A stretch of 64,000 bases of DNA, taken from NCBI GenBank assembly GCA_026874595.1, contig CM049314.1:58514300-58578299 (forward strand), given 5' to 3'. The position numbers and the translations under genes are program-made. Positions 840 through 61,499 of this stretch are shown piece after piece. Below the pieces are notes generated by a model. The model did no database searches. It was given only the letters and a program-made list of their open reading frames with translations, and had not been told where the DNA came from. Source of the DNA: Sipunculus nudus (taxonomy: Eukaryota; Annelida; Sipuncula; Golfingiida; Sipunculidae). Positions within the stretch are counted from its first letter, which is position 1. Every line of letters begins with the position of its first letter.

Positions 840-1159
840 GTTAAACATAGTCAATCAAATACGTAAAGGCGAAAATGGTCCATGTCCTAAAATCACGGTG
901 ACCGCACACATAAGTTATATCATCCAATTTTCTATCCTCAAAAAGAAACAAGACAATTCTTAACAGACTGCATGCGACACATTATATGTAATCATAAAAA
1001 ATATCTTGGATTGTAGTGCGCTTTGTCAGAGTTTTGTTTGACTCTTTAAACTCAAGATGCAGTAGACCTTTAACTTTATAATAAGATTTCACAAATTGCA
1101 AAGATGTGAGATGGATCTTTTTTTTTTTTTCTCAATGGGAATAAACTCTATGTACAAAC

Positions 1160-1192
1160 CTGTAGGTCCTGCTGTAGTTTCTGGCACGGCCA
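1160..1192 (-). CDS. Stalk microexon 16 (3'-most visible), variant VAVPETTAGPT
   Basis: Ala to Gly at position 9. Acceptor ATTTTTAG, donor GTTTGTAC. No further copy is visible between this one and base 1, so the next exon of locus 1 should lie left of the window or be unrecognised in 1-1159. Confidence 0.8.
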
Positions 1193-1845
1193 CTAAAAAT
1201 AAAAGAGAAAATATTCTGTTTCGTCTGCTTTACTTTTTATTTATATATCTTTATCTCAAAATCATTATGTTATGCTATTCTATCAAAGCCACAAAAATAA
1301 CCAAGGTTACTTCTGCAGAAAAGATGATGTGACAATATACAATATATAGCGAAATATACTTTTTTAATTGATGGTCCTTGTAATATGTATCAACTTTAAA
1401 AGCAAGTAGGTCATTCGAAGTGTCTATAAAATAATTGTGAAAAAGGCCTATGCCCGTAAATCATGGTGACCAATTACAAACTTTGTTACCCATTCTCTAA
1501 TCGGAAAAAAAGTAATCATTTTAGACCGCATGCGCTACATTACCTGTTAATGTAAACAAGTAAACCTTGCCCTTAAATCACGGTGACCACTTACCAACGT
1601 TGTTACCCATAATTTCGCATTCTCTAATCGGAAAAAAATGAAATCATTTTAGACAGCATTGGCTACGTTACTTGTCATAAAAGGTGTCTTTCTTTGATTG
1701 TGATGCGCTTTGATTAGAGTTTTTATTAAACTCCTTAAACTCAAGATGTAGCAGACCTTTCGCTTCATTATTAGATTTCACAAGTTTGCAAAAATGTGAG
1801 ACGGATCACTATTTTCTCTAAGGGGTCAACTATATATGTACAAAC

Positions 1846-1878
1846 CTGTCGGCGCTGCTGTAGTTTCTGGCACGGCCA
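1846..1878 (-). CDS. Stalk microexon 15, 33 nt, consensus peptide
   Basis: Consensus peptide with a synonymous Pro codon (CCG). Acceptor is ATTATTAG, with a weaker pyrimidine tract than the middle copies. Confidence 0.78.
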
Positions 1879-2340
1879 CTAATAATAATGGTGATGATAT
1901 TCGTCTTAAACTGCTTCACTTATTTTCTTTTATCTTTTATTCAAAACCATTTTGTCAGATTATTCATAGCCACAACTAATCTAGGAGGTCTTCTGTTTTA
2001 TTATAATGTGACAACCAAAGAAAGATAGTTATTCGAATAATTCAATGTGAGAATGATCCATGCCTTTAAATCACCGATACCATTCATACAAGTTATATCA
2101 TCTAACTTTCTATCCTCGAAACGGAAAAGAGAACAATCTTCATAGATTGCATGCGACTCTTTACGTGTAAACATAAAAAAAAAAATATCTTTGATTGTGA
2201 TATGCTTTGTATGAGTTTTGTTTTGTTCCTTCAGCTGGAAATACAACAGATATTTTAACTTAATGATAAGATTTCACAAACTACAAAAAAATGTTAGACG
2301 GATCACTCTTTTTTCTGTGGGGTCAAGTATATGTACAAAC

Positions 2341-2373
2341 CTGTAGGCGCTGCTGTAGTTTCTGGCACGGCCA
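2341..2373 (-). CDS. Stalk microexon 14, 33 nt, consensus
   Basis: Consensus peptide. Acceptor TTTTTCAG, donor GTTTGTAC. Confidence 0.85.
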
Positions 2374-2839
2374 CTGAAAAATAATGTTAGTGAAGGTATT
2401 GTGTTTTGTCTGCTTCACTGTTTTTCTTTTATCATTTATTCCAAGCCATTTTGTCATGTTAACCTACAAAAGCCACGACTAATCTAGAAATTCTTCTGTT
2501 TTAATATAATGTGACAATAAATGAAAGTTGGCTATTCGACTAATTCAATGCGAGAATAATCCATGCCCTTAAATCACGGACACCACTGATACAAGTGATG
2601 CAATCTAATATTCTATCCTCGAAACAGAAAAGAGAACATTCTTCATAGTTTGCATGCGACTCTTTACGTGTAAACATAAAAAAAAATATCTTTGATTGTG
2701 ATATGCTTTGTATGAGTTTGGTTTGTTCCTTCAGCTGTAGATACGACAGAACTTTTAAATTAATGATTAGATTTCACAAGCTATACAAAATGTGAGACGG
2801 ATCACTCTTTTTTCTGTGGGGTCAACTATATGTACAAAC

Positions 2840-2872
2840 CTGTAGGTGCTGCTGTAGTTTCTGGCACCGCCA
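2840..2872 (-). CDS. Stalk microexon 13, 33 nt, consensus peptide
   Basis: Consensus peptide with synonymous third-position changes (GCG, GCA). Splice sites intact. Confidence 0.85.
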
Positions 2873-3316
2873 CTGAAAAAATGATATTGAAGGTATCGTG
2901 TTTCTTCTGCTTCATTGTTTTTCTTTTATCTTTATTCCAAGCGATTTTGTTATGTTAATCTATTAAGCCACAACTAATCTAGGAAGTCCTATGTTTTAAT
3001 ACAATGTGACAACTAATGAAAGTTGGTCATTCGAGTAATTCAATGCGAGAATGGTCCATGCCATTAAACCACGGAGACCATTTATACAAGTTAAATCATC
3101 TAATTTACTATCCTCGAAACGGAAAAGAAAACAATCTTCATAGATTGTATGCGACACTTTACGTCTTTGATTGTGATATGCTTTGTATGAGTTTTGTTTT
3201 GTTCCTTCAGCTGGAGATACAACAGACATTTTAACTTAATGATAAGATTTCACAAACTACAAAAAAATGTTAGACGGATCACTCTTTTTTCTGTGGGGTC
3301 AACTATATGTACAAAC

Positions 3317-3349
3317 CTGTAGGCGCTGCTGTAGTTTCTGGCACGGCCA
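3317..3349 (-). CDS. Stalk microexon 12, 33 nt, consensus
   Basis: Consensus peptide, acceptor ATTTTTTCAG, donor GTTTGTAC. Confidence 0.85.
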
Positions 3350-3811
3350 CTGAAAAAATGATAGTGAAGGTATTGTGTTTCGTCTGCTTCACTGCTTTTC
3401 TTTTATTGTTTATTCCAAGCCATTTTTTCATGTTAATCTATCAAAGCCACAACTAATCTTGAAATTCTTCTGTTTTAAAATAATGTGACAACTAATGAAA
3501 GTTGGTCATTCGATTAATTTAATGCGAGAATGGTCCATGCCCTTAAATCACGGACTCCACTGATACAAGTTATATCATTTAATATTTTATCCTCGAAACG
3601 GAAAAGAGAACAATCTTAATAGATTGAATGTGGCATTTTACGTATAACTATAAAAATTATCATTGATTGTGATATGCGTTGTATGAGGTTTGTTTTGTTC
3701 CCTCAGCTGTAGATGCGACAGAACTTTTAAATTAATGATTAGATTTCACAAGCTACACAAAATGTGAGACGGATCACCCTTTTTTCTGTGGGGTCAACTA
3801 TATTTACAAAC

Positions 3812-3844
3812 CTGTAGGCTCTGCTGTAGTTTCTGGCACCGCCA
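3812..3844 (-). CDS. Stalk microexon 11, 33 nt, variant VAVPETTAEPT
   Basis: A second Glu replaces Ala at position 9. Donor begins GTTTGTAA rather than GTTTGTAC; acceptor is intact. Confidence 0.82.
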
Positions 3845-4290
3845 CTGAAAAAAAATGATATCGAAGGTATTGTGCTTCTTTTGCTTCATTGTTTTTCTTT
3901 TATCTTTATTCTATGCGATTTTGTTATGGTAATCTATTAAGCCACAACTAATCTAGGAAGTCCTATGGTTTAATACAATGTGACAACTAATGAAAGTTGG
4001 TCATTCGAGTAATTCAATTCGAGAATGGTCCATGCCATTAAATCACGGAGACCGCTTATACAAGTTAAATCATCTAATTTACTATCCTCGAAACGAAAAA
4101 GAAAACAATCTTCATAGATTGCATGCGACACTTTACGTCTTTGATTGTGAAATGCTTTGTATGAGTTTTGTTTTGTTCGTTCAGCTGGAAATACAACAGA
4201 CATTTTAACTTAATGATAAGATTTCACAAACTACAAAAAAATGTTAGACGGATCACTCTTTTTTCTGTGGGGTCAACTATATGTACAAAC

Positions 4291-4323
4291 CTGTAGGCGC
4301 TGCTGTAGTTTCTGGCACGGCCA
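4291..4323 (-). CDS. Stalk microexon 10, 33 nt, consensus
   Basis: Consensus peptide and splice sites; the exon is identical to the one at 5744 as far as read. Confidence 0.85.
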
Positions 4324-4769
4324 CTGAAAAAATGATAGTGAAAGTATTGTGTTTCGTCTGCTTCACTGTTTTTCTTTTATCTTTTTTTCAATGCAATTTT
4401 GTCATGTTATTCTGTCATAGCTACAACTAATTTATGAAGTGTTCTGTTTTATTACAATATGCAAACTAATGAAAGTTGGCCATTCGAGTAATTCAATGCG
4501 AGAATGGTCCATGCCATTAAATCACGGAGACCACTTATACAAGTTAAATCATTTAATTTACTATCCTCGAAACGGAAAAGAAAACAATATTCATAGATTG
4601 CATGCGACACTTTACGTCTTTGATTGTGATATGCATTGTATGAGTTTTGTTTTGTTCCTTCAGCTGGAGATACAACAGACATTTTAACTTAATGATTAGA
4701 TTTCACAAACCATAAAAAAATGTTAGACGGATCACTCTTTTTTCTGTGGGGTCAACTATATGTACAAAC

Positions 4770-4802
4770 CTGTAGGCGCTGCTGTAGTTTCTGGCACGGC
4801 CA
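4770..4802 (-). CDS. Stalk microexon 9, 33 nt, consensus
   Basis: Consensus peptide and splice sites. Offset 1453 bp from the copy at 3317. Confidence 0.85.
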
Positions 4803-5264
4803 CTGAAAAAATGATAGTGAAGGTATTGTGTTTCGTCTGATTCACTGCCTTTCTTTTATTGTTTATTCCAAGCCATTTTGTCATGTTAATCTATCAAAGC
4901 CACAACTAATCTAGAAATTCTTCTGTTTTAAAATAATGTGACAACTAATGAAAGTTGGTCATTCGACTAATTTAATGCGAGAATGGTCCATGCCCTTAAA
5001 TCACGGACTCCACTGATACAAGTTATATCATTTAATATTCTATCCTCGAAACGGAAAAGAGAACAATCTTAATAGATTGAATGTGACACTTTATGTATAA
5101 ATACAAAAATTATCATTGATTGTGATATGCGTTGTATGAGTTTTGTTTTGTTCCCTCAGCTGTAGATACGACAGAACTTTTAAATTAATGATTAGATTTC
5201 ACAAGCTACACAAAATGTGAGACGGATCACTCTTTTTTCTGTGGGGTCAACTATATTTACAAAC

Positions 5265-5297
5265 CTGTAGGCGCTGCTGTAGTTTCTGGCACCGCCA
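5265..5297 (-). CDS. Stalk microexon 8, 33 nt, consensus peptide
   Basis: Encodes VAVPETTAAPT with a synonymous change in the second codon (GCG). The acceptor is preceded by a run of eight T. Offset 1453 bp from the copy at 3812. Confidence 0.85.
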
Positions 5298-5743
5298 CTG
5301 AAAAAAAAATGATATCGAAGGTTTGTGCTTCTTCTTCTTCATTGTTTTTCTTTTCTCTTTATTCCAAGCGATCTTGTTATGGTAATCTATTAAGCCACAA
5401 CTAATCTAGGAAGTCCTATGGTTTAATACAATGTGACAACTAATGAAAGTTGGTCATTCGAGTAATTCAATGCGAGAATGGTCCATGCCATTAAATCACG
5501 GAGACCGCTTATACAAGTTAAATCATCTAATTTACTATCCTCGAAACGGAAAAGAAAACAATCTTCATAGATTGCATGCGACACTTTACGTCTTTGATTG
5601 TGATATGCTTTGTATGAGTTTTGTTTTGTTCCTTCAGCTGGAAATACAACAGACATTTTAACTTAATGATAAGATTTCACAAACTACAAAAAAATGTTAG
5701 ACGGATCACTCTTTTTTCTGTGGGGTCAACTATATGTACAAAC

Positions 5744-5776
5744 CTGTAGGCGCTGCTGTAGTTTCTGGCACGGCCA
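5744..5776 (-). CDS. Stalk microexon 7, 33 nt, consensus
   Basis: Consensus peptide; acceptor ATTTTTTCAG, donor GTTTGTAC. Offset 1453 bp from the copy at 4291, in the three-unit higher-order pattern. Confidence 0.85.
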
Positions 5777-6083
5777 CTGAAAAAATGATAGTGAAAGTAT
5801 TGTGTTTCGTCTGCTTCACTGTTTTTCTTTTATCTTTTATTCAATGCAATTTTGTCATGTTATTCTGTCATAGCTACAACTAATTTAAGAAAAGAAAACA
5901 ATCTTCATAGATTGCATGCGACACTTTACGTCTTTGATTGTGATATGCTTTGTATGAGTTTTGTTTTGTTCCTTCAGCTGGAAATACAACAGACATTTTA
6001 ACCTAATGATAAGATGTCACAAACTACAAAAAAATGTTAGACGGATCACTCTTTTTTCTGTGGGGTCGACTATATGTACAAAC

Positions 6084-6116
6084 CTGTAGGCGCTGCTGTA
6101 GTTTCTGGCACGGCCA
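6084..6116 (-). CDS. Stalk microexon 6, 33 nt, consensus
   Basis: Consensus peptide VAVPETTAAPT. It lies only 340 bp from its neighbour at 5744, and the sequence around it (5887-6240) nearly repeats 5550-5890, so this copy arose by a recent partial-unit duplication that still included the exon. Confidence 0.85.
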
Positions 6117-6579
6117 CTGAAAAAATGATAGTGAAAGTATTGTGTTTCGTCTGCTTCACGGTTTTTCTTTTATCTTTTATTCAATGCAATTTTGTCATGT
6201 TATTCTGTCATAGCTACAACTAATTTATGGAGTGTTCTGTTTTATTACAATGTGCAAACTTATGAAAGTTGGTCATTCGAGTAACTCAATGCGAGAATGA
6301 TTCATGCCCTTAAATCACGGAGACCACTGATACAAGTTATATTATCTAATTCTCTATCCGCGAAACGGAATAGACAACATTCTTCATAGTTTGCATGCCA
6401 CTCTTTACGTGTAAACATAAAGAATTATCTTTGATTGTGATATGCTTTGTATGAGTTTTCTTTTGTTCCTTCAGCTGGAGATACAACAGAGCTTTTAAAT
6501 TAAAGATTAGATTTCACAAACTACACAAAATGTGAGACGGATCACTCTTTTCTCTGTGGGGTCAACTATATGTACAAAC

Positions 6580-6612
6580 CTGTAGGCGCTGCTGTATTTT
6601 CTGGCACCGCCA
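6580..6612 (-). CDS. Stalk microexon 5, 33 nt, variant VAVPENTAAPT
   Basis: One Thr codon has become Asn (ACT to AAT). Asn-Thr-Ala does not form an N-glycosylation sequon. Acceptor TTGTTCAG and donor GTTTGT are intact. Confidence 0.82.
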
Positions 6613-7054
6613 CTGAACAAATGATATTGAAGGTATTGTGTTTCTTCTGCTTCATTGTTTTTCTTTTATCTTTATTCCAAGCGATTTTGTTATGTTAATC
6701 TATTAACCCACAACTAATCTAGGAAGTCCTATGGATTAATACAATGTGACAACTAATGAAAGTTGGTCATTCGAGTAATTCAATGCGAGAATGGTCCATG
6801 CCATTAAATCACGGAGACCACTTATATAAGTTATATCATCTAAATTACTATCCTCGAAACGGAAAAGAAAACAATCTTCATAGATTGCATGCGACACTTT
6901 ACGTCTTTGATCGTGGTATGCTTTGTATGAGTCTTGTTTTGTTCCTTCAGCTGGAAATACAACAGACATTTTAATTTTATGATTAGATTTCACAAACTAC
7001 ACAGAATGTGAGACGATCATTCTTTTCTGTAAGGGGTCAACTATATGTACAAAC

Positions 7055-7087
7055 CTGTAGGCGCTGCTGTAGTTTCTGGCACGGCCA
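7055..7087 (-). CDS. Stalk microexon 4, 33 nt, consensus VAVPETTAAPT
   Basis: Consensus peptide, phase 1 on both sides. Acceptor reads CTTTTCAG, donor GTTTGTAC. Confidence 0.85.
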
Positions 7088-7553
7088 CTGAAAAGAAATG
7101 TGAGTGAAGGTATTGTGTTTCGTCTGTTTCACTGTTTTTCTTTTATTGTTTATTCCAAGCCATTTAGTCATGTTAATCTATCAAAGCAACAACTAATCTA
7201 GAAATTCTTCTGTTTTAAAATAATGTGACAACTAATGAAAGTTGGTCATTCGACTAATTTAATGCGAGAATGGTCCATGCCCTTAAATCACGGACTCCAC
7301 TGATACAAGTTATATCATTTAATATTCTATCCTCGAAACGGAAAAGAAAACAATCTTAATAGATTGAATGTGACACTTTACGTGTAAATACAAAAAAATA
7401 TCATTGATTGTGATATGCGTTGTATGAGTTTTGTTTTGTTCCCTCAGCAGGAGATACAACAGACATTTTAACTTAATGATTAGATTTCATAAACTACACA
7501 AAATGTGAGACGGATCACTTTTTTTTTCTGTGGGGTCAACTATAAGTACAAAC

Positions 7554-7586
7554 CTGTAGGCGCTACTGTAGTTTCTGACACGGCCA
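7554..7586 (-). CDS. Stalk microexon 3, 33 nt, variant VAVSETTVAPT
   Basis: Full-length 33-nt unit with TTTTTTCAG-type acceptor and GTTTGT donor. Two changes from consensus: Pro to Ser at position 4 and Ala to Val at position 8. Thr residues are kept. Confidence 0.8.
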
Positions 7587-8051
7587 CTGAAAAAAATGAT
7601 AGTGAAGGTATTGTGTTTCGTCTGCTTCACTGTTTTTCTTTTATCTTTTATTCTAAGCCATTTTGTCATGTTATTCTGTCATAGCTACAACTAATTTAAG
7701 AAGTGTTCAGTTTTATTACAATGTGCACACTAATGAAAGTTGGTAATTCGAGTAATTCAATGCGTGAATGGTCAATGCGCTTTAATCACGGAGACTACTA
7801 ATACAAGAGATGCCATCTATTATTCTATCCTCGAAACAGAAAAGAGAACAATATTAGTAGATTGCATGCGACACATTACGTGTAAACATTGAAAATTTAT
7901 CTTTGTTTGTGATATGCTATGTATGAGTTTTGTTTTGTTCCTTCAGCTGGAGATACAACAGACCTTTTAAATTAATGATTAGATTTTACAAACAACACAA
8001 AGTATGAAACGGATAACTCTTTCCTGTACGGGGTCAACTATATGTGCAAAC

Positions 8052-8075
8052 CTGTAGGCGCTGCTGTAGTTTCTG
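8052..8075 (-). CDS. Stalk microexon 2 (shortened to 24 nt)
   Basis: Encodes Ala (split codon) then ETTAAPT. A deletion removed the original acceptor and 9 exon bases; the new junction TTACAG supplies an AG. Length 24 preserves the phase-1 frame. Donor is GTTTGC. Confidence 0.55.
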
Positions 8076-8524
8076 CTGTAATTTTCGTCTTAAACTGCTT
8101 CACTGATTTTCTTTTATCTTTTATTAAAAACCATTTTGTCAGGTTATTCTGTCATAGTCACAAATAATCTAGGAAGTCTTCTGTTTTATTATAATGTGAT
8201 AACTGATGAAAGATAGTCATTCGAGTAATTCAATGCGAAGATGGTCCCTTCCCTTAAATCACGGAGACCACTTATACAAGTTATATCATCTAATATTCTA
8301 TCCTCGAAACGAAAAAGAGAACATTCTTCCTAGATTGCATGCGACTCTTAACGTGTAAACATAAAAGAATTATCTTTCATTGTATTATGGTTTGTATGAG
8401 TTTTGTTTTGTTCCTTCAGGTGGAGATACAACAGACCTTTTAACTTAATGATTAAATTTCACAAACGACACAAAATGTGAGACGCATCACTCTTTTCTCT
8501 AAGGGTTCAACTACATATACAAAC

Positions 8525-8545
8525 CTGTAGGCGCTGCTGTAGTTT
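8525..8545 (-). CDS. Stalk microexon 1 (5'-most, shortened to 21 nt)
   Basis: Encodes Glu (split codon) then TTAAPT. Compared with the locus 2 microexon, a deletion removed the usual acceptor and the first 12 exon bases; an AG now abuts the remaining exon (GGCAG). Length 21 keeps phase 1 on both sides. The upstream polypyrimidine tract is poor, so use is uncertain. Donor is GTTTGT. Confidence 0.5.
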
Positions 8546-11500
8546 CTGCCATTATTATTCTTCATTGTTTTTCTAATTTCTTTATTAACGACATTTTTTT
8601 TCAGAAAGTTTCTGCGATTGTTGTAACTAAAACAACGTGGCTGCATGTTTCAGAGTTAACCCCTTTGAAATTCATCACCAGACAATCAACCCCCAACCCC
8701 ACACACACATAAACCAACCCCGGCCATAAACCCGAGTGATATCCCATCCGAATCATATGTTTCTCAGGCCAATTAGTTACAATCCAACAATTTATCCTCC
8801 TGGACATGACCCCCGGATATTTATCCCAAAGTACACTTATCTAGCTGTTATCTATTTGTATGTAAGGTTATGTTATTCTGTCGAATTTTCATATAAAATT
8901 TTGCAAACAAACTTTTTTTTTTAACTTTGGATCATAATGAGACTAAAAATCGATGTTTATATTTTTTTTCATTTTTCATCTTGGATAAGTGGCGGCATAT
9001 ATAAAAAAGGGCTTTATAAAAATAAAAAACCAACATTTTAGACCGGGCAACACAAGAACAATTTGATATCCTCAATAGAAAAGCTGTCTTACTTGATCAT
9101 GCGCTACATTTTACTTTAAAATCGATTCCTGCATCCAAAAATATTGCATTTTACATATTTAATAAGATGATTATATAGTATAAATATGCACATATGAAAA
9201 AAATGGTGGAACTGTTTATATATTAAATAATTATTTTGATTATTTTTTTTTTTTCTAGAAAGAATAACAAACTTAGGGTACAAGTTTTAGTTTTGATCAG
9301 ATATAACGTTTGTCTGTTAAAATGTCTATATTTTTTAATTAATAAAATGCAGATAATTCATGCAAATTAGACAAATTATTTGAGTAAAGGTAGTCGTTTT
9401 TCCTTAAGAAAATCCAAAAGGAAATAGTTGCTCGTTATTTTACTTATTAGCCGTAATATGTTTTAATATTTATTTTAAAGTGTATATACATATTTGTGTT
9501 ATTTTTTAACGAATTTGCATATATAAATATATGTCAAATGAAAAAGCGATACTGACTGAAAATATAAAAAAAAAATATTTGAGACCATATATTCAGTGCG
9601 ATTAAACAATAGGTCTGCTTCCAATCAAGTTTTCCATTTTATTTTTATATTTCTGTGTGCAATTAACAGCTGGTGGAATCCGTATCAATCGTAAGGTGTT
9701 TGGTGCGAAATAATACAGCAACTGGGTATTGATGTCATGATGTGAAAAGCAAGGATTGTACATGTACCTTATACGTCATGCATCAAGTTAAGAAAATAAT
9801 TTAATTCATGCGTATCAGCATAATTAATAGACATTTAAAGAACAAAGGATGTTCAACTTATGTTCGTATGATATCTCGCTGAAAATCAATATGTTATCCA
9901 TGTGTATAAATGATGTTTGCAGTGTATGCCTTTGAGCATATTTACATGAGTAAAATCAATTTTAACTTAAATATTCAGATTTAAATTTAATCTGATAAAC
10001 AACCATTTTCCAGTTGGACGGTTTCTGTCAAATTGTATTTTAATTTGAAATATAATGGTTAGCACTTTGTTTTTTTTAAGCATATTTGTTCTGTTATATA
10101 TTTTCTTTGAGTCATTATAATACAGTATTAGTTGAACGAAAACAACATACTATGACATTAATTGACATAAGTTAATTCCATCTTATTGCAATTTTCTTTT
10201 AGCGTTTTCAGACAAAACCAAACCCGAATGTATGCTATATATATTTATTTGTTCATAAAACACATTATATATTGGAAAAATATATCATACGAGGTGATTA
10301 TTCGAGGAGTATAATTGTCCTAGGGGAATTATCGGGAGGGGGGGGGGGGGGGTTATTGTGTTTGGGATAAACTTCATTTGGGGATGTTGGGGGGGATGGT
10401 AATATTCTAAGGGGCTTATTGTAGGGGTAATAAAATATAATAAGTTAGACATAAGACACTAAATTGTGACCCAGGAAAGTAAACAACGAAATCTACACGT
10501 CAACCCGTTGTCAATTTACATATTAGATGTTATATATGTAATGATTGATTGACAATGACAAAGATTGTATAGTTCCGATGGCAGCTATATTGAGTATAAA
10601 AGTCAGACATCTCAGAGTCAAATGCGTGATAATGCAACAGAAAGATAATGTAAAATATATATTTATGTCATTATAGTAATGCATAATCTATTTTAATTGT
10701 ATTGTCATAATTTATAAGAGTGTTGGGTTTAAATGCAAATGCAAGAAATTCTAACCTGTAATAGTAATAGTGTAGTAATAAGACCCCTAATAATTTAATG
10801 ATAGCTATTACTTTTACTATAAGCCTTGGCTTAAACGGGTTAGGGCGGGAGTGTTAGTTACCGCCACCAAAACTATTAGTTTGCGATCATGGAACTTAAT
10901 AAATGTGACCTCCCCTAGATGGCTCCAGGTTGAACCCACTGGACCATGACAGGTCCAGAAAAGCCAATCACTTAGGTACCTCTGTTTCACAGCGGGTGCA
11001 AGCGATCAACTAATCGGCGACAACTGCGCTGCACGCACACGCCCTGTTAATCGCTCTTTGCTTTGTGTCTTTTATTACAATGCGACGGAGAAATACGCGG
11101 AGACACACTTCTCAGGGCCTACTCTCACGATCCTGTTGAAAAAGAAATGAATGTACCACAGACGTGACAAGAAGCAGACATAGGTCTGTGGTCAGCTGAG
11201 GCTCGACTCTCATCGAAAACTTTCGACATCCTCCCTGAGCAAGTCTGTCTTGAAACATCTGACAACCGCCGACGTGAACGAGTTCGATTTCGCAAACTAC
11301 TATTAGCGGGAATTGATGGACTGAAGAAAGCAGACAAGTAAGAGGACAGGGTGGTTAGCGGCTCCACACAACCACAAATCACAGAATCCGAGTTGACGGG
11401 TCCAACCGATTTGGCGGGAAATCTGTCTCCTCCGGACGCCATCTTGGGTAGTCTTGCGCGACATACAAGAGGAAAGTCTATGGCCAACCCCCCCCCCCCC

Positions 11501-12991: not shown

Positions 12992-13030
12992 CAGTCGTGG
13001 CTGCCAAAGTCGTGCAGAGAAAACTCGAAC
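12992..13030 (-). CDS. Locus 1 exon 2: 39-nt exon completing the signal peptide
   Basis: Minus-strand exon with acceptor TTACAG and donor GTAAGTAT on its two sides. In the phase-1 frame it encodes SSFLCTTLAATT between two split codons (Cys at the 5' join, Glu at the 3' join with the 8545 microexon). It is nearly identical to the 39-nt exon at 61461-61499 in locus 2 (SSVLCSTLAATT), and the flanking introns are also homologous. The donor side runs within a few bases into a (GA)n(TA)n tract (12903-12979). The signal-peptide cleavage site would fall near the end of this exon. Confidence 0.8.
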
Positions 13031-16413: not shown

Positions 16414-17619
16414 AAACCAATATCGCAACTAGTTGAATTTCAGTCACCTAACGAGCGGACGAGGCGAAACCGACGGTCGTGATCCAGATTCATCACATAC
16501 CTTCACATATATATTATATAAATATATATATCCCGGACAATTAACAAACTTTGCCGTTTACTTGATATGAAACAAAATCGTGCAGGGCTAAGCTGTTTGG
16601 CCCTCGGATAAAGAAATTGCACGATCTCACAAAACTGCGGATTTTTTTTTTTAAATTCAGAATACATTATTGTAATCAAGGGTACCTCTAGCTTCTAGTG
16701 TTTTAGAGATTATCAAATGTGTCACCATTATATGGTTCAACATATCATCAAGCGAATAACAACTTTAAAACATTATACTCTGCTGCCTGTTTGCACAGCT
16801 CTCTTTATTTTTTTGACTGACGCACTTGATGTAAGGTTGTATTTTTAATCATTTGCAGTCATTCTACTAGGAAAATTTCAAAAATTGACTGGTATCGCAC
16901 TGAACCGGGTGCATATTTCTGACACGGAAAACAGTCCTAGTCACCTCACCCTTTAATTCTGCTAGCAGTTAGATAAATATACCAACGATCAAACAGGCAT
17001 GATTTTAACATAACCTGCTCAATGGAGTTAATAAAATTAATGATAAATTGACCCTGCTTACGACATCACGTACTCGGGTCGAACTGCCATATGTATTCTT
17101 TACTTGTGCCCTGAAGTGCCACTCGACCTAGATTCGACAATAGAGCAGCTATATATCTCACCCTGTGTTATTTTTAGAAAAGGCAGGTGTGGACTTTAGG
17201 TAATTTTCCCAAAAGTAGTCAATGTTAGGACACTGGTTGGCACGTGAGGGGGGACCCTTTTTCAGAGGGTTTAAGGAGATTAGTGTTCGTAAAGAGTGTC
17301 ATTTTCACTGAAATTTAATCAGGGGTGGGTCAAAGTTTCACAAAGTATACTTAAGAAAGGGTGTTCCTTGACACATGATATTTTTTATTTTTTGAAGTTA
17401 GACCCATTGCCTGGGGGGAGGGAGGTTGGGGGTTGGACTTCTTATTGAATGCGGATGAAGGGAACTATACGATAAGAATAATTCTTTTCTGTTTTTTTTT
17501 CTTTTGTTAATATTTTTGTTGTTGATAGAGGTAAACGCCTACGTTTATGAACTTAACTCGAAGTGTATGTACATCTGCGGAATTCTATTCGTATAAGGTA
17601 ACAGGGCAGTGTCGCAAGC

Positions 17620-17920
17620 TCCCTTTCATTTTTTGATCCTATCTCAACCAGGCCCAGGGAATACTGCACCTGCTGGCTCTGGGTGTGTAATCGTCCCCGT
17701 TGCTGAGTCGTACCCCGAGGAACCCCCAAAACATGCACTCGTTTGTGAATGAAACACGGCCGTTTGGCAGGGCCTTCCCAATTAACTTGCACAGCCCTAA
17801 CCCTCGGTTGAGCCAACCGTGAAAAATCTCCCCGCCTCGGTTGAGATTCGAACCTATTATTTCCCGGCGTTGAGTCATGAGCTCTGCACCTGAGAAAGAG
17901 AAGCCGGTGTTTCTGAGTTT
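17620..17920 (-). repeat. tRNA-derived SINE, copy 1
   Basis: On the minus strand: a tRNA-like head with a B-box (GGTTCGAATCTCAACC, near 17851-17836), then AGATTTTTCACGGTTGG and a body with CGGCCGTGTTTCATTCACA. The same body follows tRNA-like heads at 43.63 kb and 48.57 kb, defining one SINE family. Confidence 0.75.
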
Positions 17921-18460: not shown

Positions 18461-18497
18461 AAAGGACAGCGAACAGCATCCCTGAACCGGTGGTCAT
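18461..18497 (-). CDS. Locus 1 exon 1: start codon and first half of signal peptide
   Basis: On the minus strand ATG lies at 18497-18495 and opens MTTGSGMLFAVL plus one base, followed by a strong donor (GTAAGT, 18460-18455). Joined to the 39-nt exon at 13030 the frame continues with Cys then SSFLCTTLAATT, giving a compact hydrophobic core followed by small residues, as expected of a eukaryotic signal peptide. The start is chosen because it is the first ATG upstream of the donor in the frame that fits both the hydrophobic stretch and the phase-1 chain. The matching exon of the paralog should lie beyond 64000. The separation from exon 2 (5.4 kb) is the main uncertainty. Confidence 0.65.
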
Positions 18498-26581: not shown

Positions 26582-27477
26582 ATGAACCAGGAAGAGAACC
26601 AGGAATTAGAACAACAGAAACCTCGCCTTTGCACCTCTTGTGGTAGGCCGTGTAAAGGCCACGAGGGGCCTTATGGCCCTCAATGTAAGCACCATGTCCC
26701 GCAGGGCACTCCAGTGATAGAGAGCCAATTGGGAAAGTGCAGTGATTTTCAGTATTCTGCAGACTAAAAGAATGACAGTATGAACATCCTTATGGAACAA
26801 ATGCAGAAATCTCGCCTTTGCACCTCTTGTGGTAGGCCGTGTAAAGGCCACGAGGGGCCTTATGGCCCTCAATGTAAGCACCATGTCCCGCAGGGCACTC
26901 CAGTGATAGAGAGCCAATTGGGAAAGTGCAGTGATTTTCAGCATTCTGCAGACTCAAAGAATGACAGTATGAACATCCTTATCGAACAAATGCAGAACGT
27001 GAATTTGGACCTTACGGCTCTCATAGAGACACAGGCCACTCTTACAAAACTTGTTATGTCGTGCATCAAGGGCTAGCACATTCAGCTACTAACCAGTGTG
27101 ACGCAAAAGAGGCCGAGCAACCAGTTTCAGGTCCCGAAGTGACAGTGCAGCCTAAGACGCCTCAGCTAGGCTTGTCTGAAAAGGTGATAGCAGTAGCCCA
27201 GCTTGGTGAGTACGTGAACTTACTTGACTTTTTATCTAATGCAGAAAGTTGTAGTCAGGAGCTAGAAGCCATCCTGGTGAATGGTATGTTAGAAATGCAC
27301 CCTAAGAAGCCTAAACCGGTCATAGACAATTTTAACTGTTGGCTATCTACATGGACAAACTTTGAAAGAGTCGTTATACATAAATACCCACAATTGTACA
27401 CAAACTTGGCCGTGTACCGCACCTTCGTGCAAGAGTGGGATAAAAAAATACGTTTGGCTAGCGGTTTACGCGTATGA
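26582..27477 (+). pseudogene. Ngaro gag, N-terminal part with duplicated zinc-finger module
   Basis: Starts at ATG 26582. A Cys/His segment (LCTSCGRPCKGHEGPYGPQC, KHHVP) occurs twice, 189 bp (63 codons) apart, at 26622 and 26811. The first copy ends in a stop at 26765-26767 where the second copy reads TCA, a single C-to-A change. The frame reopens at 26780 and runs to 27076, then shifts to another frame (to 27477). The later part (LDFLSNAESCSQELE, FNCWLSTWTNFERV, YRTFVQEWDKKIR) is the Gag domain seen in DIRS/Ngaro elements. Gag would bind element RNA in particles. Confidence 0.7.
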
Positions 27478-28780
27478 CGTAAGACATCGTACAAAACTCT
27501 CAGGGACGGCTCACCCATTTCAGTTCCACATAGTAAATACGGACTTATACGCTACAATTTTGGAAGCTACAGCCATTAGGAAAGGTGATATTAGATGTTT
27601 TAAGTGCCGTTCTCATTCCCATTCCGTTCGAGAATGCCCCTTTCGGGCAGAGCTAGCCCAGAAAGAGGCGAGCGACACCTATCATCAGGACCAGAGTGCC
27701 CCTCGTAACTCGAGTATCGGGCGTAAGGCAAGCTCGGAACGATGGTTTCACAATGGGGCAGAAGGATGCAACAACTATCAGATCGGTCGATGCAGTTTCC
27801 CAGCTTGTAAGAGAGCCCATGTGTGCCGGAACTGTAAAGGACCTGACCCGTACAACCAATGTAAAAAGTGTAATCCGAACTACATCGCCATTAAATTTAC
27901 CGGCATGGAAGGAAGCATTACGATTACATCCGGACCAAATTTCGTAAACAGATTACTTTATGGTATAGAGCATGGAGTGAGAATAGGGCACAATGGCCCC
28001 CGAGAAACACGTGTAAGTCCCAACTGGCCATCCACGAAAACCCACGCGGCCGTGGTCAAAGAATCCATTGATAAAGACCTGAAGCTCAAACACAGGGCAG
28101 GGCCATTTTCACAACCACAATTCCGACATTTTGTCGCTTCGCCGTTAGGAGTGTATCACAAGAAGCGCTCAGACAAATATCGTGTCATACACGATCTCTC
28201 GTGGCCGCCGGGCCAAGCTGTAAACCATTACATTACCGATAAGGAATGTGCCGTACGTTATATATCTATGGATCAGGTGGTCACAATCGTGAAATCCTAC
28301 GGGAAAACGCCTTACTCGCTAAGCTTGACCTTAAGGACGCTTACAGACATATCGTTGTCGCTCCAGGGGACTGCGAACTAGTTGGAAGTTCCTTGCCAGT
28401 AACGGACTCCGAAGGGATAGAACGCGTAGAATATTTCGTCGATCTTGTGCTCCCGTTCGGGCTTCGTAGTTCGGCTCGTCTCTAACGATTATGACGACGC
28501 TCTTCAGTACGTAATGCGCGACAGGGGAGCGGCAGTCGTGGAGGATTACCTAGACGATTACGTCACTTGCGGATCTCCGGCATCAAGCCAGTGTAATGAT
28601 AATCTGAAGATTATGCTGAAGAGTTGCGAGGACCTGGGTTTTACCGTCCAGCCTTCTAAAGTGACCAGCCCCTCTACACGTATGGAATACCTTGGTATTA
28701 TTATTGACACAGAAATGATGGCGCTTCAGATTTCCGAGGAAAGAATGTCCGAAGTCATAAGCGAACTATGACTTTGGAGG
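27440..28780 (+). pseudogene. Ngaro gag C-terminus (zinc knuckle) and reverse transcriptase
   Basis: In the frame of 27362-28381 a CCHC knuckle CFKCRSHSHSVRECP lies near 27594, followed by a second Cys/His cluster (CNNYQIGRCSFPACKRAHVC, then CRNCKG). The RT domain starts near 28120 (SPLGVYHKKRSDKYRVIHDL). A frameshift near 28310 moves to the frame with LAKLDLKDAYRHIVV, which contains the first catalytic Asp; another near 28470 leads to EDYLDDYVTCG, with the YLDD catalytic pair at about 28547-28561. The frame stops at 28771. RT would copy the element RNA; this copy cannot make it as one chain. Confidence 0.82.
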
Positions 28781-28979
28781 GAGAAGCGCACCTGTAAACC
28801 CGCGAGCTTCTATCTTTGATAGGAAACGTTTGTCGCTAAGGTAGTTCGGCCGGGTAGAACATTCACTAGACGCCTTATTGACTTAGCAAAGAAAGTCAAG
28901 CATCTGCATCACCGAACGCGGCTAAGTAAAGCTGCACGTGGAAGACATCGGCTGGTGGTTAGAGTATTTGCCATCATGG

Positions 28980-29415
28980 AACAGATTAAGCTTGTTCTAC
29001 GATTCCGACTGGACAGTCAATGCAGATTTGTGGTTCGTTCAGTGACGAACGAGGCGGCCTCGCACAGAAAATTATCGCCTGGCGGGAATTGCATGCTCTC
29101 GTTTTAGCGGCAGCCACGTGGGGACATAAATGCGCCAGAAAAAATGTTTTGTTCCATTGCGATAATATGACAATTGTGAACATTCTGCAAAAAGGCGCGT
29201 CTAAAAATGATAAGATTATGTCATTACTGCTATCACTATTCTTTATATGTGCTAATAACAATTTTATGTGTAGTGCCGAACACGTCCCAGGGGCCAAAAA
29301 CCCGGCCGCCGACGGCTTCTCTCGCTGGCAAATTGCGAGATTTAAAGCGCCTGATCCACAGGCTAATGAGCACATGACAGAGATTGGGCGTATCCCCTTG
29401 GATGTTTTATCTTAA
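28980..29415 (+). pseudogene. Ngaro RNase H domain
   Basis: The open frame 29020-29415 contains AWRELHALVLAAATWG and FHCDNMTIVNILQKG, then SAEHVPGAKNPAADGFSRW, the order found in the RNase H domain of DIRS/Ngaro polyproteins. The start is damaged: FYDSDW at about 28996 is followed within a few codons by the middle of the domain, so the first catalytic Asp segment is partly deleted. Confidence 0.8.
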
Positions 29416-29539
29416 ACGAAGGGTTAGTGGTAACTTACTTAATTTCCTTAAATGTATATCAGTTTATTTCAGATGACAGTCGACTGTTACAAAGCGAGGC
29501 CAGAGAGCTGGTGAGAGGAGGCCTTAAATCATCCACCCC

Positions 29540-30380
29540 ACCAGACGGAAATATGAAGTAGGACAGAAACAGTATTTGGACTTTAATGTGAGATATAATC
29601 TAAGAGCTGTACCGGCATCAGAGGACACGCTCCTCATGTTTATAGCTTGGTTGCATCGCCGCTCTCTTAAGCATAGCACTGAGTCCGTATATCTGGCTGC
29701 AGTTAGATCATTACATATTGAAGAAGGTCATTTAATTCCACTTACTAACGCCCTCAGGGTTAAGAGGGCACTTTGTGCCAGCCATCAAAACTATTAGCGG
29801 CCCACCGTCAAGAAAACTGCCGATAACATATAATATCTGTTAAATGTCATTACTACTTCTTACCAACACAAACTATTGTGGTCAGCGATGACCTTGGCAT
29901 ATTACGCCTGTTTTAGAGCAGCTGAATTTACTGTGTCTGGGAGTTTTGATCACAGACGCTACCTTTCATTAGGTAGTATTCAAATACTAAATTCGCCGTC
30001 TTTGCATATGAGACTGCATTTAAAACAATCCAAAACGGACCGGCACTGCCATGGCGTCGACATGTACATTGGCTGCTCCAAATCACAGGTTTGCGCAGTG
30101 TGTGCAATGATCCAGTACTTACAGGTGAGAAATGGCTTGCCTCAAAATTGTGCCACATATGCCCTTTATCGATTCCAAAACAATGTTATCTTGTCAAAGT
30201 CATTATTCTCAAGTCAAATGCGTTTGCTACTGGCGGCCGCGGGATTAACTGGGAATTTCTCCAGTCACTCCATGCGTCGGGGTTTCGCCACTGATGCTGC
30301 CGCGGCACAGCTTCGGGACTGGGACATTAAATCTCAGGACGCTGGAGAAGCCATGTCTACCAATCATACATAGAAACGCC
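29540..30380 (+). pseudogene. Ngaro tyrosine recombinase
   Basis: The N-terminal SAM-like DNA-binding part lies at 29576-29797 (LMFIAWLHRRSLKHSTESVY), broken by a stop; the catalytic part lies at 29876-30373. Visible catalytic features are Arg in YYACFRAAEF, Lys in LKQSKTDR, and His-x-x-Arg in HSMRRGFATDAAA. The nucleophile Tyr is in a different frame, in the block VYQSYIETP (Tyr at about 30367-30369), so one frameshift near 30335 separates it. The enzyme would integrate a circular DNA copy without making a target-site duplication. Confidence 0.88.
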
Positions 30381-34468: not shown

Positions 34469-34762
34469 GACTTCCGGTTCAATATGGCCACATGAGTGGA
34501 CACACTTTTATTTGCTCTCTCAGTGAATAAGTATATCACGGGATATAATGTCACAGGTGTCTCAAATTACTACAAGGTCAAAAAGCAAAAGTGATATGTC
34601 ATCTTTGGAGCAACCATGTATGGAGAAATATTTGGAACAAGGGCATAAAAAGTCCACCCTTCACAGAGAGACGGGCGAGAACAAGGGTTCGCTCAGGCAA
34701 GTGGTTCAATAATAGATGTTGTAGATGTTGTAGATGCTAAGTGCACCCAACTTCAAGAGGTA

Positions 34763-35529
34763 ATGCAGACTGCTCTGAATGACTTTAAAACATCACTTTG
34801 TGAAGAGATTTCACATATTAGAAGTGGTCTAGAGAAAGCAGAAACTAATTATGCTGCACTGAACTCAAAGGTTGACTCTGTGGTGAAATGTCTTGAATTT
34901 ACACAGGCTGAGCTTCAAACAACAATGACTAAATTGGCAAAAATTGAGGCAGAAAATAAAGCTCTGAAATCTGAAGTAAATGAACTAAAAAAAATAATGA
35001 GAAAAATCAGGAGATTACTTCATTAAAGGAAAAGTTATTGGACTCGGAAAGATATAGCCGGGAGTATAACTTGAGGCTCATTGGGGTCCCAGAACAAAAC
35101 AGGAGGACTGTAAAAAGATTGTTGCAGAGCATATTGTTAACAAAAAAACTCCTGAATGATAATTTTGAAACAATTAATGTGCTGGAAGCTATTAAAAACG
35201 CTCATAGAACCGGTAAACAAAAATCTGAGGGCCATAGAAATATTATAGCAAGATTCCATGCAAGACCGGTACGAATCACGATACTAAAAACACAAAGAGA
35301 GAAACGAGGTCAAGAGGACAAAAACTTCGTACACTTTGTAGAAGACTTGGTCAGGGAAGATTATTATTTGAAGAAGAAAGCCGGGCCACAAATCAGACAG
35401 GCATCCACGTACAAACAAAAAGTACGGTTCTGGCACGGCCGGTTGATTATTAACGGGAAAAAAAGTCCCTATCAACGATGCCTAGACACCGCAACATGGG
35501 CATATTATGCCAAACACAGCTGTCACTAA
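34763..35529 (+). pseudogene. L1 ORF1 (RNA-binding chaperone), frameshifted
   Basis: From ATG 34763 the first 85 codons form a heptad-rich coiled coil (VKCLEFTQAELQTTMTKLAK, IEAENKALKSEVNELKK). A frameshift at an A run near 34990 moves to the next frame, which is open to 35529 and reads DSERYSREYNLRLIGVPEQN, then NAHRTGK and RKRG/HFVEDLV-like blocks typical of the L1 ORF1 RNA-recognition and C-terminal domains. The product would trimerise and coat LINE RNA. Open sequence also precedes the ATG, so the true start could be further upstream. Confidence 0.82.
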
Positions 35530-36980
35530 GCCTCTTCCTTCAACGACGACACGTGGTTCTCCCGCTGGATTCTCTATACTTCCAATACTTGTCACCAGGG
35601 CGGAGAGTGACAATTAGAACAGTCTGGCCCCCGTTTTATATTCTGGAATTCGTGACGAGTCAAATCTATTATGGCTATGAGAGACTATCAATGGTTCACA
35701 GAAACTTTACTCATTATCGCCTGGTCGGTACTAGAGGACTTCAAGTAAGTTTTGATAATGAACACTTACCAATAGATTATCTCGCCCAAGGTTGATTACT
35801 TTTTTTTTAATTTTATTCAGGTAGTTTTTCTTTTTATTAAACGCATCAGGAATGCTAATCAATAAAGTACGCCCTCAGATGTAGTTAAGATATTAATAAC
35901 CATAACTTTAATGATATTTAACTTATCACGGAAGCATGATGTATGTCCTTAATCTTGATAACTGATCCGGCATATTACATATTGCATCATGCACATAACA
36001 AATTACTACATATTATTTCAGCTTTCTCAATTTAAACATTAATTCATCCTCATATAATGTGTCTTTGGGACAATTTTAATCTTTAGGTCAGGGTAGATTC
36101 TGTATTTCTGTACAAGAAGTATCTTAACACATATACATGTATTTCTATGATGATTTATTGTTGCATAATATCATTCATTATAGAAAAATGAGTGGCAACA
36201 GGATTCGCACTAAGATGAAAATACATATTTAACAGTCTGTGACTCTGTGAAGTCATTATATTATATTATCTAAAAATACATTTTGGGACAGATTTTAATC
36301 TTCAGGTCAGTTTATATTTTGTTTTTTTTTGCACAAGAAATATCTTAACATATATATTCATATATTTCTAAAATGACTTGTTATTGCATAATATCATTTA
36401 TTATTAGGATGCAACATTATAAAAATGTATGGCAACTAGATTTTCACTAAATGAAAATACATATTTAACAGTCTGAGACTGTCTGCTGTCATAATATAAA
36501 GTTAGCCTGACTTGGTTAAAATAAAAATGTTATATCTTTTATACAGCCCTGAGAATGAGCCATGAGCAACCAAAAACTTAAAACATCTTACTATCACCAC
36601 TATTACTGTATTTCCAGTTTTCATGATGGTGATGCAGGCACTCTTTCTGCCCTAGTATTCAGCAGCACTTACTACCTGTAAGGGCTTGGAAGAAAACTTT
36701 GTGTTCCTATACACTTGTTGTTTCTTTATGAATTTTTTTTTTGTTTTTTTTTTGTCTTCTACTTGTCCTGTTGTTGTTAGAGTTATAACATCTCACTGGC
36801 ATAAGGATGTGAAATTAGTTGAACTGTTTCACAACTTTAGCAGAATAATACAGATCAGCAAGTTCTTTTATGTATGCAGTCCAAGTTGATTGCTGTATTT
36901 TAGATATAATCTTCCTGCTTCTGATATACATGTGTACATGGAACCGAATATATGTAGTACTTTATATTTATTTTTTTATG
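35530..36980 (+). other. Spacer between L1 ORF1 and ORF2, with an internal ~220-bp duplication
   Basis: No domain recognised. 36055-36260 and 36275-36490 are diverged tandem copies sharing TTTTAATCTTNAGGTCAG, TGCATAATATCATT and GAAAATACATATTTAACAG. The length exceeds the usual L1 inter-ORF gap, so it may include an insertion. Confidence 0.6.
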
Positions 36981-36984
36981 TCCA

Positions 36985-47060: not shown

Positions 47061-47255
47061 TTATGTGAACATGTAAAACCCTAGGAAGTTGATGTCTCTT
47101 GACTCGTCGCCTGTATATGCCCTTCCAACTGACCTCACTCTGATAGTCTCGCCCGCTGAACATTCGACAATCATCGACTTGCTCAGAGTTTCGAAGCCCC
47201 CTGGTAAGTCAAAACGAACTCCTCCGACAAACTCGTTATTCTTCAAAACGAGGAG
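47061..47255 (-). CDS. Locus 2 last exon: end of third C1q-like domain
   Basis: 195 nt (64 codons plus TAA). Acceptor CTTTCAG preceded by a long T run; joins in phase 0 after Arg. Begins LLVLKNNEFVGGVRFDLPGG and ends with SAGETIRVRS and NFLGFYMFT, matching the last strands of the fold (the final FLGF block corresponds to FGGF of domain 2). The open frame upstream of the acceptor is intronic. Confidence 0.85.
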   Translation of the reverse strand, partial: LLVLKNNEFVGGVRFDLPGGFETLSKSMIVECSAGETIRVRSVGRAYTGDESRDINFLGFYMFT

Positions 47256-49096: not shown

Positions 49097-50064
49097 CCTG
49101 AATTGCGCAAATTCTGACGTTACTCCGCTGATGTGAACGTAGTAGAGACCAGTGAAGGCACAGACTGCTTGGTTCTCCTGCCAGGCCCCGCCCTCGTTCA
49201 CTTCGGTGTGATCGAATTCTAGAGGGTCTTGGTTTGATGTCACCGGACTTCCGCGAAAAACGGACCAGGCCGAACGGACAGGTCGCTGTGTGTTGTACTG
49301 GAACCCTCCGAAAGTCGTTAGATAATTACTGTTGGAAAAGCCTTCGTATTCAGAAAACAACTGGACTGTATCGCCTGCGAACATGCTCAACATTACCGAC
49401 CTCTGGAAGCTGTCCACGTCGACCTCGACGTCGGGATGCCTGTGTACACGATACACATTGACACCATTTATCCGTAAATGCAGGTCTGCCCTGTTCCCTT
49501 CTGCAACCCCTGTTGAGAACGTGAAATAATAGATCCCCGTGTCGGGTACTGTGAAAGTATTGGTGTTGTAATTCCAAGTCCCCTGGGTATCAGCAAATAT
49601 CGTATCAAAAGTGACTTGACCAGAGGTGAAGTTTGTGCTCTTGCCCACCGAAAACCCTACCATCGTTTGCATCACTCCGGATAGAGACAGCGTTCCCCAT
49701 GATGTGGCGAGGGTGTCAACGGAACTCATCAGTCTTGGCCCGTCAGATCTGATGGACAGTTGGTCGTTGTAGTTGAAATAAGTGATGAAGTCTCTGCCCA
49801 TCACGGATTCGTCGAAAGTATTACCTGATGCGTCACGATAAATGGCGGTCATGGTGGTGGTTCCTCGCTGAAGCTTGTAACTTGTTAAGCTATTTCCGGG
49901 ATGTCCAGCAGACAAACTTATGAGATACAGGCCCGAATAAGGAATGGTCAGCCTCCACGTGTCCTGGTTTAAGTGACCGCCGCGGTTGAAAACGAGTGCA
50001 TCAAAGTTAGCCGGATCCCTTGCACCGTCATGAGTATAAATGTTGGCGGCAAAGGAGGCCTGGT
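49097..50064 (-). CDS. Locus 2 main C1q-like exon (domains 1, 2 and most of 3)
   Basis: 968 nt: two bases completing Asp, then 322 codons, with acceptor ATTCTTACAG and donor GTGAGA after an Arg codon. Domain 1 covers exon residues about 1-132 (QASFAANIYTHDGARDPANF ... SGLYLISLSAG ... YNDQLSIRSDG). Domain 2 covers about 133-258 (VGFSVGKSTNFTSGQVTFD ... GIYYFTFSTG ... AGDTVQLFSEYEGF ... FGGFQY) and has an NFT sequon. Domain 3 begins near 259 (SAWSVFRGSP) and includes GLYYVHISGV before the intron. Each is about 130 residues with the G-x-Y-x-(F/I) and G-D-x-(V/L)-x-(L/I) strand motifs of the C1q/TNF fold. The fold call is from motifs and could be checked by profile search; 'TNF-like' is the alternative label. 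Confidence 0.85.
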
Positions 50065-52994: not shown

Positions 52995-53036
52995 CTGTTG
53001 GTCCTGGTGTTGTACCCGGTGTGTAGGTGGTGTATC
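52995..53036 (-). CDS. Locus 2 PT-rich linker exon, 42 nt, GC donor
   Basis: Acceptor TATTGTTTTAG. Encodes Gly (split codon), YTTYTPGTTPGPT, then Asp at the join to 50064. Phase 1 on both sides, so it too can be skipped in frame. The donor is CAG followed by GCAAGT, a non-canonical GC donor with an otherwise ideal consensus. The 7 Thr/4 Pro-Gly composition continues the stalk. Confidence 0.78.
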
Positions 53037-55935: not shown

Positions 55936-55968
55936 CTGTGTACGCTGCTGTAGTTTCTGGAACGAACA
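55936..55968 (-). CDS. Locus 2 single stalk microexon, 33 nt
   Basis: Encodes VFVPETTAAYT, the same unit as the locus 1 array with Ala to Phe at position 2 and Pro to Tyr at position 10. Acceptor TTTTTTTTCAG, donor GTCTGTAT. No second copy is found in locus 2; an unrelated insertion of about 420 bp (55503-55925) begins 10 bases past the donor. Confidence 0.82.
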
Positions 55969-61460: not shown

Positions 61461-61499
61461 CAGTCGTGGCTGCCAGAGTCGAGCAGAGGACACTCGAAC
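61461..61499 (-). CDS. Locus 2 exon 2: signal-peptide end, 39 nt
   Basis: Acceptor GCATTACAG, donor GTACGTAT. Encodes SSVLCSTLAATT between split codons, differing from the locus 1 exon at three residues. Phase 1 on both sides. A long (TA)n tract (61380-61422) follows some 40 bases into the intron, as in locus 1. Confidence 0.8.

Follow-up and report, generated by a model that had tools for sequence, protein, structure and literature searches.

Results

Gene structure at the locus

The DNA analysed here, called the window throughout, is a stretch of 64,000 nucleotides from Sipunculus nudus (C9:58514300-58578299 of the assembly GCA_026874595.1, C9 being contig CM049314.1), to which flanks of 40 kb on the left and 30 kb on the right were added. 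The gene in question, gene A, is located on the minus strand, starts at window position 18497, extends about 4.8 kb beyond the left end of the window, and contains a tandem array of 33-nt microexons that would encode a Thr/Pro-rich stalk. Its two closest paralogs are tandem neighbours: gene B lies within the window and is collinear with A, gene D is found further right, and the three genes share the order exon 1, exon 2, stalk exons.

When joined, the 20 exons of the gene A model form a single open frame of 597 amino acids, arranged as exons 1 and 2 with the predicted signal peptide, 14 array exons, two further Thr/Pro microexons of 48 and 45 nt, and the C1q exons (Table 1). Every junction from exon 1 up to the C1q exon is in phase 1, and each of the 16 stalk exons of the model is a multiple of three with phase 1 at both ends. 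Exons 1 and 2 together give MTTGSGMLFAVLCSSFLCTTLAATT, which is hydrophobic as judged by hydropathy and is kept in gene B. The three C1q domains exceed the Pfam cut-off (31.3, 46.7 and 30.1 bits vs 23.7), and by domain count gene A belongs to the multi-C1q class; the stalk has no Gly-X-Y run and there is no collagen tail. The stalk microexons make up 14 x 33 + 48 + 45 = 555 of the 1794 nt, i.e. 31%, of the coding sequence, and 55 Thr and 36 Pro are present in the 187 residues that follow from the end of exon 2. A TATA-like TTATAAG motif is present approx. 60 bp upstream of the start codon in both gene A (window 18555 region) and gene B.

A preliminary description of this DNA had proposed a Thr/Pro stalk made from frame-neutral coding microexons. 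This proposal is supported, the exons being under constraint and the frame being anchored by the predicted signal-peptide exons and the intact C1q exons. The C1q head, the two further stalk exons, the paralogs and the loss of two acceptors had been missed.

The microexon array

The core CAGAAACTACAGCAGCGCCTACAGgtttgt occurs in 16 copies on the minus strand between 8548 and 1154, with one relative at 55959. Tandem units of 473-479 bp were called by Tandem Repeats Finder, and the spacing between neighbouring units is 473-499 bp in 13 of the 15 steps (340 and 686 bp in the remaining ones), in agreement with the units of ~480 bp reported before. The donor stands at an identical position in all 16 units and reads GTTTGT in 15 and GTTTGC in one, so the earlier observation that the donors are mostly GTTTGT was correct. 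In 14 of the 16 units the exon is intact, that is, exactly 33 nt long, bounded by AG and GT, in phase 1 at both ends and free of stops. The consensus microexon, TG GCC GTG CCA GAA ACT ACA GCA GCG CCT ACA G, is preceded by a pyrimidine-rich acceptor and followed by GTTTGT. When the 30-nt core was searched with up to 3 mismatches in the 1.43-Gb assembly (153 contigs), at least 16 matches were obtained, and since all of them fall inside the array, the array is not a product of chance.

In units 1 (8548) and 2 (8075) the polypyrimidine tract and the acceptor are gone; in the alignment of unit 1 with paralog B a gap of ~31 columns spans both the pyrimidine tract and the AG. A model with 16 working exons was rejected for this loss, and the count of intact exons was set to 14. 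Thus the 16 tandem microexons of the preliminary description are present as units, but two of them have neither acceptor nor polypyrimidine tract. The 24- and 21-nt exons suggested for these two units are unlikely, because the AGs used would have no pyrimidine tract, although the nearly unchanged 27 nt that are left of exon end and donor speak for them to some degree.

Table 1. Exons of genes A and B (window numbering; positions with the prefix C9 are those of the contig)
Feature	Position	Strand	Remarks
Gene A exon 1, predicted signal peptide start MTTGSGMLFAVLC, donor GTAAGT	18461..18497	-	near-identical exon 1 in paralog B
Gene A exon 2, predicted signal peptide end SSFLCTTLAATT, donor GTAAGT	12992..13030	-	homologous exon in B at 61499-61461
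Array unit 1, exon remnant without acceptor or polypyrimidine tract	8525..8557	-	alignment with other units and paralog B
Array unit 2, exon remnant without acceptor or polypyrimidine tract, donor GTTTGC	8052..8084	-	
Array unit 3, 33-nt microexon VAVSETTVAPT	7554..7586	-	
Array unit 4, 33-nt microexon VAVPETTAAPT	7055..7087	-	
Array unit 5, 33-nt microexon VAVPENTAAPT	6580..6612	-	
Array unit 6, 33-nt microexon	6084..6116	-	340 bp to next unit
Array unit 7, 33-nt microexon	5744..5776	-	
Array unit 8, 33-nt microexon	5265..5297	-	
Array unit 9, 33-nt microexon	4770..4802	-	
Array unit 10, 33-nt microexon	4291..4323	-	
Array unit 11, 33-nt microexon VAVPETTAEPT	3812..3844	-	
Array unit 12, 33-nt microexon	3317..3349	-	
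Array unit 13, 33-nt microexon	2840..2872	-	
Array unit 14, 33-nt microexon	2341..2373	-	
Array unit 15, 33-nt microexon	1846..1878	-	
Array unit 16, 33-nt microexon VAVPETTAGPT	1160..1192	-	
Gene A 48-nt Thr/Pro stalk exon VPNTTPVPTTTPQPT, donor GTAAGT	C9:58513948-58513995	-	left of window
Gene A 45-nt Thr/Pro stalk exon APTTTLVPTTPEPT, donor GCAAGT	C9:58513312-58513356	-	left of window
Gene A large C1q exon	C9:58510406-58511373	-	left of window
Gene A last exon	C9:58509462-58509656	-	left of window
Paralog B exon 1	66089-66125	-	right of window; near-identical to gene A exon 1
Paralog B exon 2	61461..61499	-	homologous to gene A exon 2
Paralog B single 33-nt stalk microexon VFVPETTAAYT, donor GTCTGT	55936..55968	-	
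Paralog B 42-nt stalk microexon GYTTYTPGTTPGPT, GC-AG donor GCAAGT	52995..53036	-	
Paralog B main C1q exon	49097..50064	-	Pfam C1q E 1.7e-21
Paralog B last exon, third C1q domain end	47061..47255	-	

Constraint on the exons and choice of the reading frame

Constraint was measured by counting differences from the consensus over the 14 intact units; since the units share ancestry, the p-values are to be taken as guides only. The exon differed at 12 of 462 positions and the donor at 0 of 84, compared with 628 of 5814 (10.8%) in the intron; 2 of 42 differences were found at acceptor positions -3 to -1 and 21 of 220 in the pyrimidine tract. The 39-nt window covering exon and donor diverges by 2.2%, while the lowest value for any non-overlapping 39-nt window is 5.7%. 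Variable columns number 7 of 41 in exon, donor and AG vs 281 of 436 elsewhere in the unit (p 4e-9). The effect is clearest at the diverged edge of the array: in unit 15 the intron is changed at 149 of 434 positions (34%) and exon plus donor at 1 of 39 (p 1.6e-6), and in unit 16 the corresponding values are 112 of 413 and 2 of 39 (p 5e-4). This constraint suggests that the array exons are included in the mRNA.

The choice of phase follows from exon 1 and the C1q exon and from composition, as only this phase yields a Thr/Pro stalk. The other reading frames were set aside, since exon 1, with 37 nt, leaves the frame in phase 1, and entry into the C1q exon is likewise in phase 1, not only in A, B and D but also in 28 of the 30 paralog loci fetched, while 2 loci gave no reading. 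When 134 kb were scanned for phase-1 Thr/Pro exons, with thresholds chosen when the exons were already known, the sense strand yielded 31 calls and the opposite strand 4; all but one of the 31 correspond to stalk exons of A and B or to alternative bounds of them.

Several points weigh against reading the array as coding exons of a secreted protein, besides the shared ancestry of the units mentioned above. The excess of differences at 4-fold sites (7 of 126) over non-degenerate sites (5 of 322) reaches only p 0.044, and the 4-fold sites are not clearly different from the introns (p 0.058). Neither the repeated microexon nor exon 2 has a stop in any of the three frames, and when exon 2 is considered by itself, silent differences between A and B are more numerous in frame 0, where 3 of 4 fall at third positions, than in the phase chosen. 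The signal peptide of gene A is a prediction from hydropathy alone. Finally, in units 1 and 2, the remaining 27 nt of exon end and donor carry 0 and 1 differences from the consensus (p 0.02 and 0.07), which would mean either that the loss of the acceptors was recent or that these exon ends are still used somehow.

Turnover of the array

Pairwise identity among units 3-14 is 85-98%; it is 77-82% when units 1 and 2 are compared with these, and 59-73% for units 15 and 16 against all others. Units 7, 10 and 12 are 97-98% identical to each other, 8 and 11 are 97% and 9 and 12 are 92% identical, so that units 7-9 and units 10-12 resemble two copies of one block. Unequal crossing-over leaves arrays similar in the middle and diverged at the edges. 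The near-identical middle and the diverged edges of the array thus point to repeated unequal exchange, and the near-identity of the units is, judged by these comparisons, a mark of recent turnover.

Paralogs and the C1q family

In gene D, modelled as far as the C1q exon, exons 1 and 2 are followed by a single 33-nt exon (VYTPGNSEAYT, donor GTTGGT), by a 42-nt exon whose donor is of the GC type, and by a C1q exon with an open frame. When translated, the C1q exons of A and B are 81% identical and those of B and D 92%. The ratio of nonsynonymous to synonymous substitutions (dN/dS) over 322 codons of this exon is 0.33 (A-B), 0.30 (A-D) and 0.22 (B-D). A GC-AG donor, GCAAGT, is kept as a rare splice site at the last stalk exon of A (C9:58513312), B (window 52995) and D (C9:58614914). 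Copy number, which had been proposed to tune stalk length, does differ between the paralogs, with 14 intact array exons in A vs one 33-nt exon each in B and D, and to this extent the proposal was supported. The idea that B and D retain a remnant of a second unit was dropped, because a copy of that sequence is also present downstream of unit 16 in A and it may be a dispersed repeat.

The genome search with the C1q exon of B gave 63 matches, partial ones among them. In 30 paralog loci, of which 1 was unreadable, a Thr/Pro candidate was found in 4 within the 1.5 kb upstream of each, and in four distant paralogs followed over 10 kb upstream a single Thr/Pro microexon was present in 2 and none in 2. 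For gene C, a plus-strand gene to the left of A, 16 kb of upstream sequence contained no Thr/Pro stalk exon; an 18-nt candidate, RTTGV, came from a laxer scan and was not accepted as real. A short Thr/Pro microexon stalk is thus common to part of the C1q family. The array was found in A alone among the genes examined, most family members having been read too short upstream to exclude others. Upstream of one distant C1q paralog (L049:8766-10000) a 280-bp tandem repeat of 4.4 copies with 89% matches was seen, in which no Thr/Pro microexon was called.

In the search for protein homologues of gene B, none of the 3680 word-sharing candidates reached E 0.001. Domain 2 of B has structural counterparts in the PDB, with matches to cerebellin-1, adiponectin and chains of C1q.

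Donor strength

The calculated U1 pairing of the array donor, CAG|GUUUGU, is -7.0 kcal/mol, the values for exons 1 and 2 being -4.9 and -8.6, respectively. The array donors had been described as weaker than those of exons 1 and 2; this holds for exon 2, but the pairing is stronger than that of exon 1. The array donor departs from the consensus at +3 and +4, and the single 33-nt exons of B (GTCTGT) and D (GTTGGT) are also off consensus. Since the genes with a single exon have such a donor too, it need not be related to the array, and as the sign of variable inclusion for which it had been taken, it is weak. Complementary intron arms of at least 11 nt, which might drive exon repetition, were not found in window 4300-5300, the only stretch tested.

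Other elements in the window

Retroelement remnants lie at window 26606-30373, with a weak RVT_1 match at 28430-28771 that is under the curated cut-off, and a 189-bp tandem duplication is present at 26615-26997. At window 34649-40031 open frames resembling those of a long interspersed nuclear element were seen by eye; one piece (37349-37696) was scanned and had no Pfam match, and a 250-bp triplication is found at 37530-38289. A repeat at 17566-17912 and 48559-48888, in opposite orientations and 70% alike, has tRNA-like promoter boxes by eye and may be a short interspersed nuclear element.

Discussion

The most probable reading of these data, to which we give a probability of roughly 80%, is that the product of gene A is a secreted protein which carries three C1q domains behind an N-terminal stalk, and that this stalk is assembled from symmetrical microexons in tandem, multiplied as units of exon plus intron. 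A 33-nt exon of the kind that stands singly in B and D would have been multiplied in A in units of ~480 bp, and the array's near-identical middle and diverged edges suggest repeated unequal exchange. As every unit is in phase 1 at its entry and exit, the gain, loss or skipping of a unit would change the protein by 11 residues and leave the C1q frame intact. Judged by its composition, the stalk is probably an extended, O-glycosylated spacer for the C1q heads, and it would occupy the place which collagen or coiled-coil tails take in other C1q proteins. Its length would be set chiefly by genomic copy number.

Splicing may tune the stalk besides copy number, so that the transcripts of one animal differ in the number of array exons; we regard this as possible, though with odds below even. 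All units are symmetrical and any subset of them stays in frame, the exons have only 33 nt and their donor is off consensus at +3 and +4, and exons shorter than ~50 nt are often skipped. The donor argument is diminished by the U1 pairing, which is not weaker than that of exon 1, and by the off-consensus donors of the single-exon genes B and D; the stretch tested for complementary intron arms likewise offered no support. Known systems speak for such variation: in SmPoMuc of Schistosoma mansoni, which has the same layout, transcripts with 1-100 repeats come from genes with at most 20 (PMC2576457), and transcripts of the schistosome micro-exon genes (MEGs) skip symmetrical microexons (PMC4015677). 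That the recognition protein has two means of varying how far its C1q heads reach, namely an array copy number that differs from one individual to the next and a microexon inclusion that differs among transcripts, is a still more tentative proposal and on balance rather unlikely.

It is improbable that the array exons are mostly skipped and that the usual protein has a short stalk like those of B and D, inclusion being rare. The exons are indeed short with donors off consensus, and B and D manage with one 33-nt and one 42-nt exon. However, the constraint on exon and donor is seen in all 14 intact units and is strongest at the diverged edges, which would be hard to keep if the exons were rarely used. 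As for an intronic satellite or a decayed gene in which the exon-like match is accidental and has no coding meaning, tandem repeats of ~480 bp are common in introns, two units have lost the acceptor and the intron of the unit consensus also has an open stretch in another frame, but this explanation is hardly credible, since the lowest divergence falls over exon and donor, a homologous exon stands once each in B and D at the same place, the C1q frame is open and constrained, and the intronic open stretch, rejected as coding, has no codon periodicity (9.7, 10.1 and 9.9% by codon position).

Genes in which tandem symmetrical exons set the length of the protein include those of collagen, tropoelastin and the apolipoprotein(a) kringles, where the exons are longer and the modules are other ones. 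The closest precedent for the layout is SmPoMuc, in which the signal peptide is followed by a 27-bp exon in units of ~1 kb, present 0-20 times per gene and encoding a mucin repeat; its units are homogenised, and the clustered paralogs have 1, 2, 7, 15 or ~20 of them (PMC2576457, PMC4015677). Both systems have a short symmetrical exon with its intron in tandem and a Thr/Ser/Pro repeat after a signal peptide, in gene A a predicted one; the likeness is one of layout, and no sign of common descent was seen. The SmPoMuc repeat has 9 residues of Ser/Thr/Pro type while the unit of gene A has 11 with Thr/Pro, and the available parts of the SmPoMuc reports mention no C1q domain (PMC2576457, PMC4015677), whereas gene A continues into C1q exons. 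Furthermore, SmPoMuc is a parasite gene with demonstrated transcript variation.

The schistosome MEGs (the MEG family, the MEG-4/10-3 antigen and SmVAL6; PMC10526429, PMC4015677) share with gene A many short symmetrical exons, and their product is secreted, as is predicted for A. In SmVAL6 the microexons stand beside exons of a conserved domain, as in gene A (PMC10526429, PMC4015677), and exon skipping is known in this group (PMC4015677). Microexons form up to 75% of the coding sequence of the MEGs (PMC10526429, PMC4015677) vs 31% in A, where they are not the majority.

With respect to the head, gene A resembles the bivalve smultiC1q proteins, e.g. HcC1qDC6, in its three C1q domains, the lack of a collagen tail and, by prediction, secretion (PMC6835236, PMC5519582). 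Collagen tails are rare among bivalve C1q proteins (PMC6835236, PMC5519582). In HcC1qDC6, however, the first C1q domain begins five residues past a 19-residue signal peptide, and the available parts of the reports, in which the 5' end of the gene is incompletely sequenced, mention no microexon stalk (PMC6835236, PMC5519582). The Rlec C-type lectins of the prawn Macrobrachium nipponense also combine a signal peptide, repeats in variable number and a recognition domain, but their 1-9 repeats of 30 or 33 bp lie inside one exon and the domain is a C-type lectin, not C1q; in one type a greater repeat number enhanced function (PMC7536079). Among the matches listed, by title and start of abstract, from the open-licence full-text literature on C1q or molluscs with microexons, tandem exons or Thr-rich stalks, no description of a microexon stalk on a C1q gene was found.

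Variation in the length of protein repeats is mostly located within one exon and changes by slippage. What is repeated in gene A is an exon together with its intron, so that length would change via unequal crossing-over and, if it is used, splicing, with the frame kept safe. The locus offers a natural experiment, since of three adjacent C1q genes that are built alike, two contain a single 33-nt stalk exon and the third contains 14, and the stalk length of an immune-type recognition protein can be counted here as units in DNA and RNA. Our analysis suggests that the microexon mucin-like stalk, known from a parasite, had a second origin in a C1q gene. If variation in both ways proves to be true, the protein would be, on the side of defence, an independently evolved counterpart to the schistosome mucins with their variable repeats.

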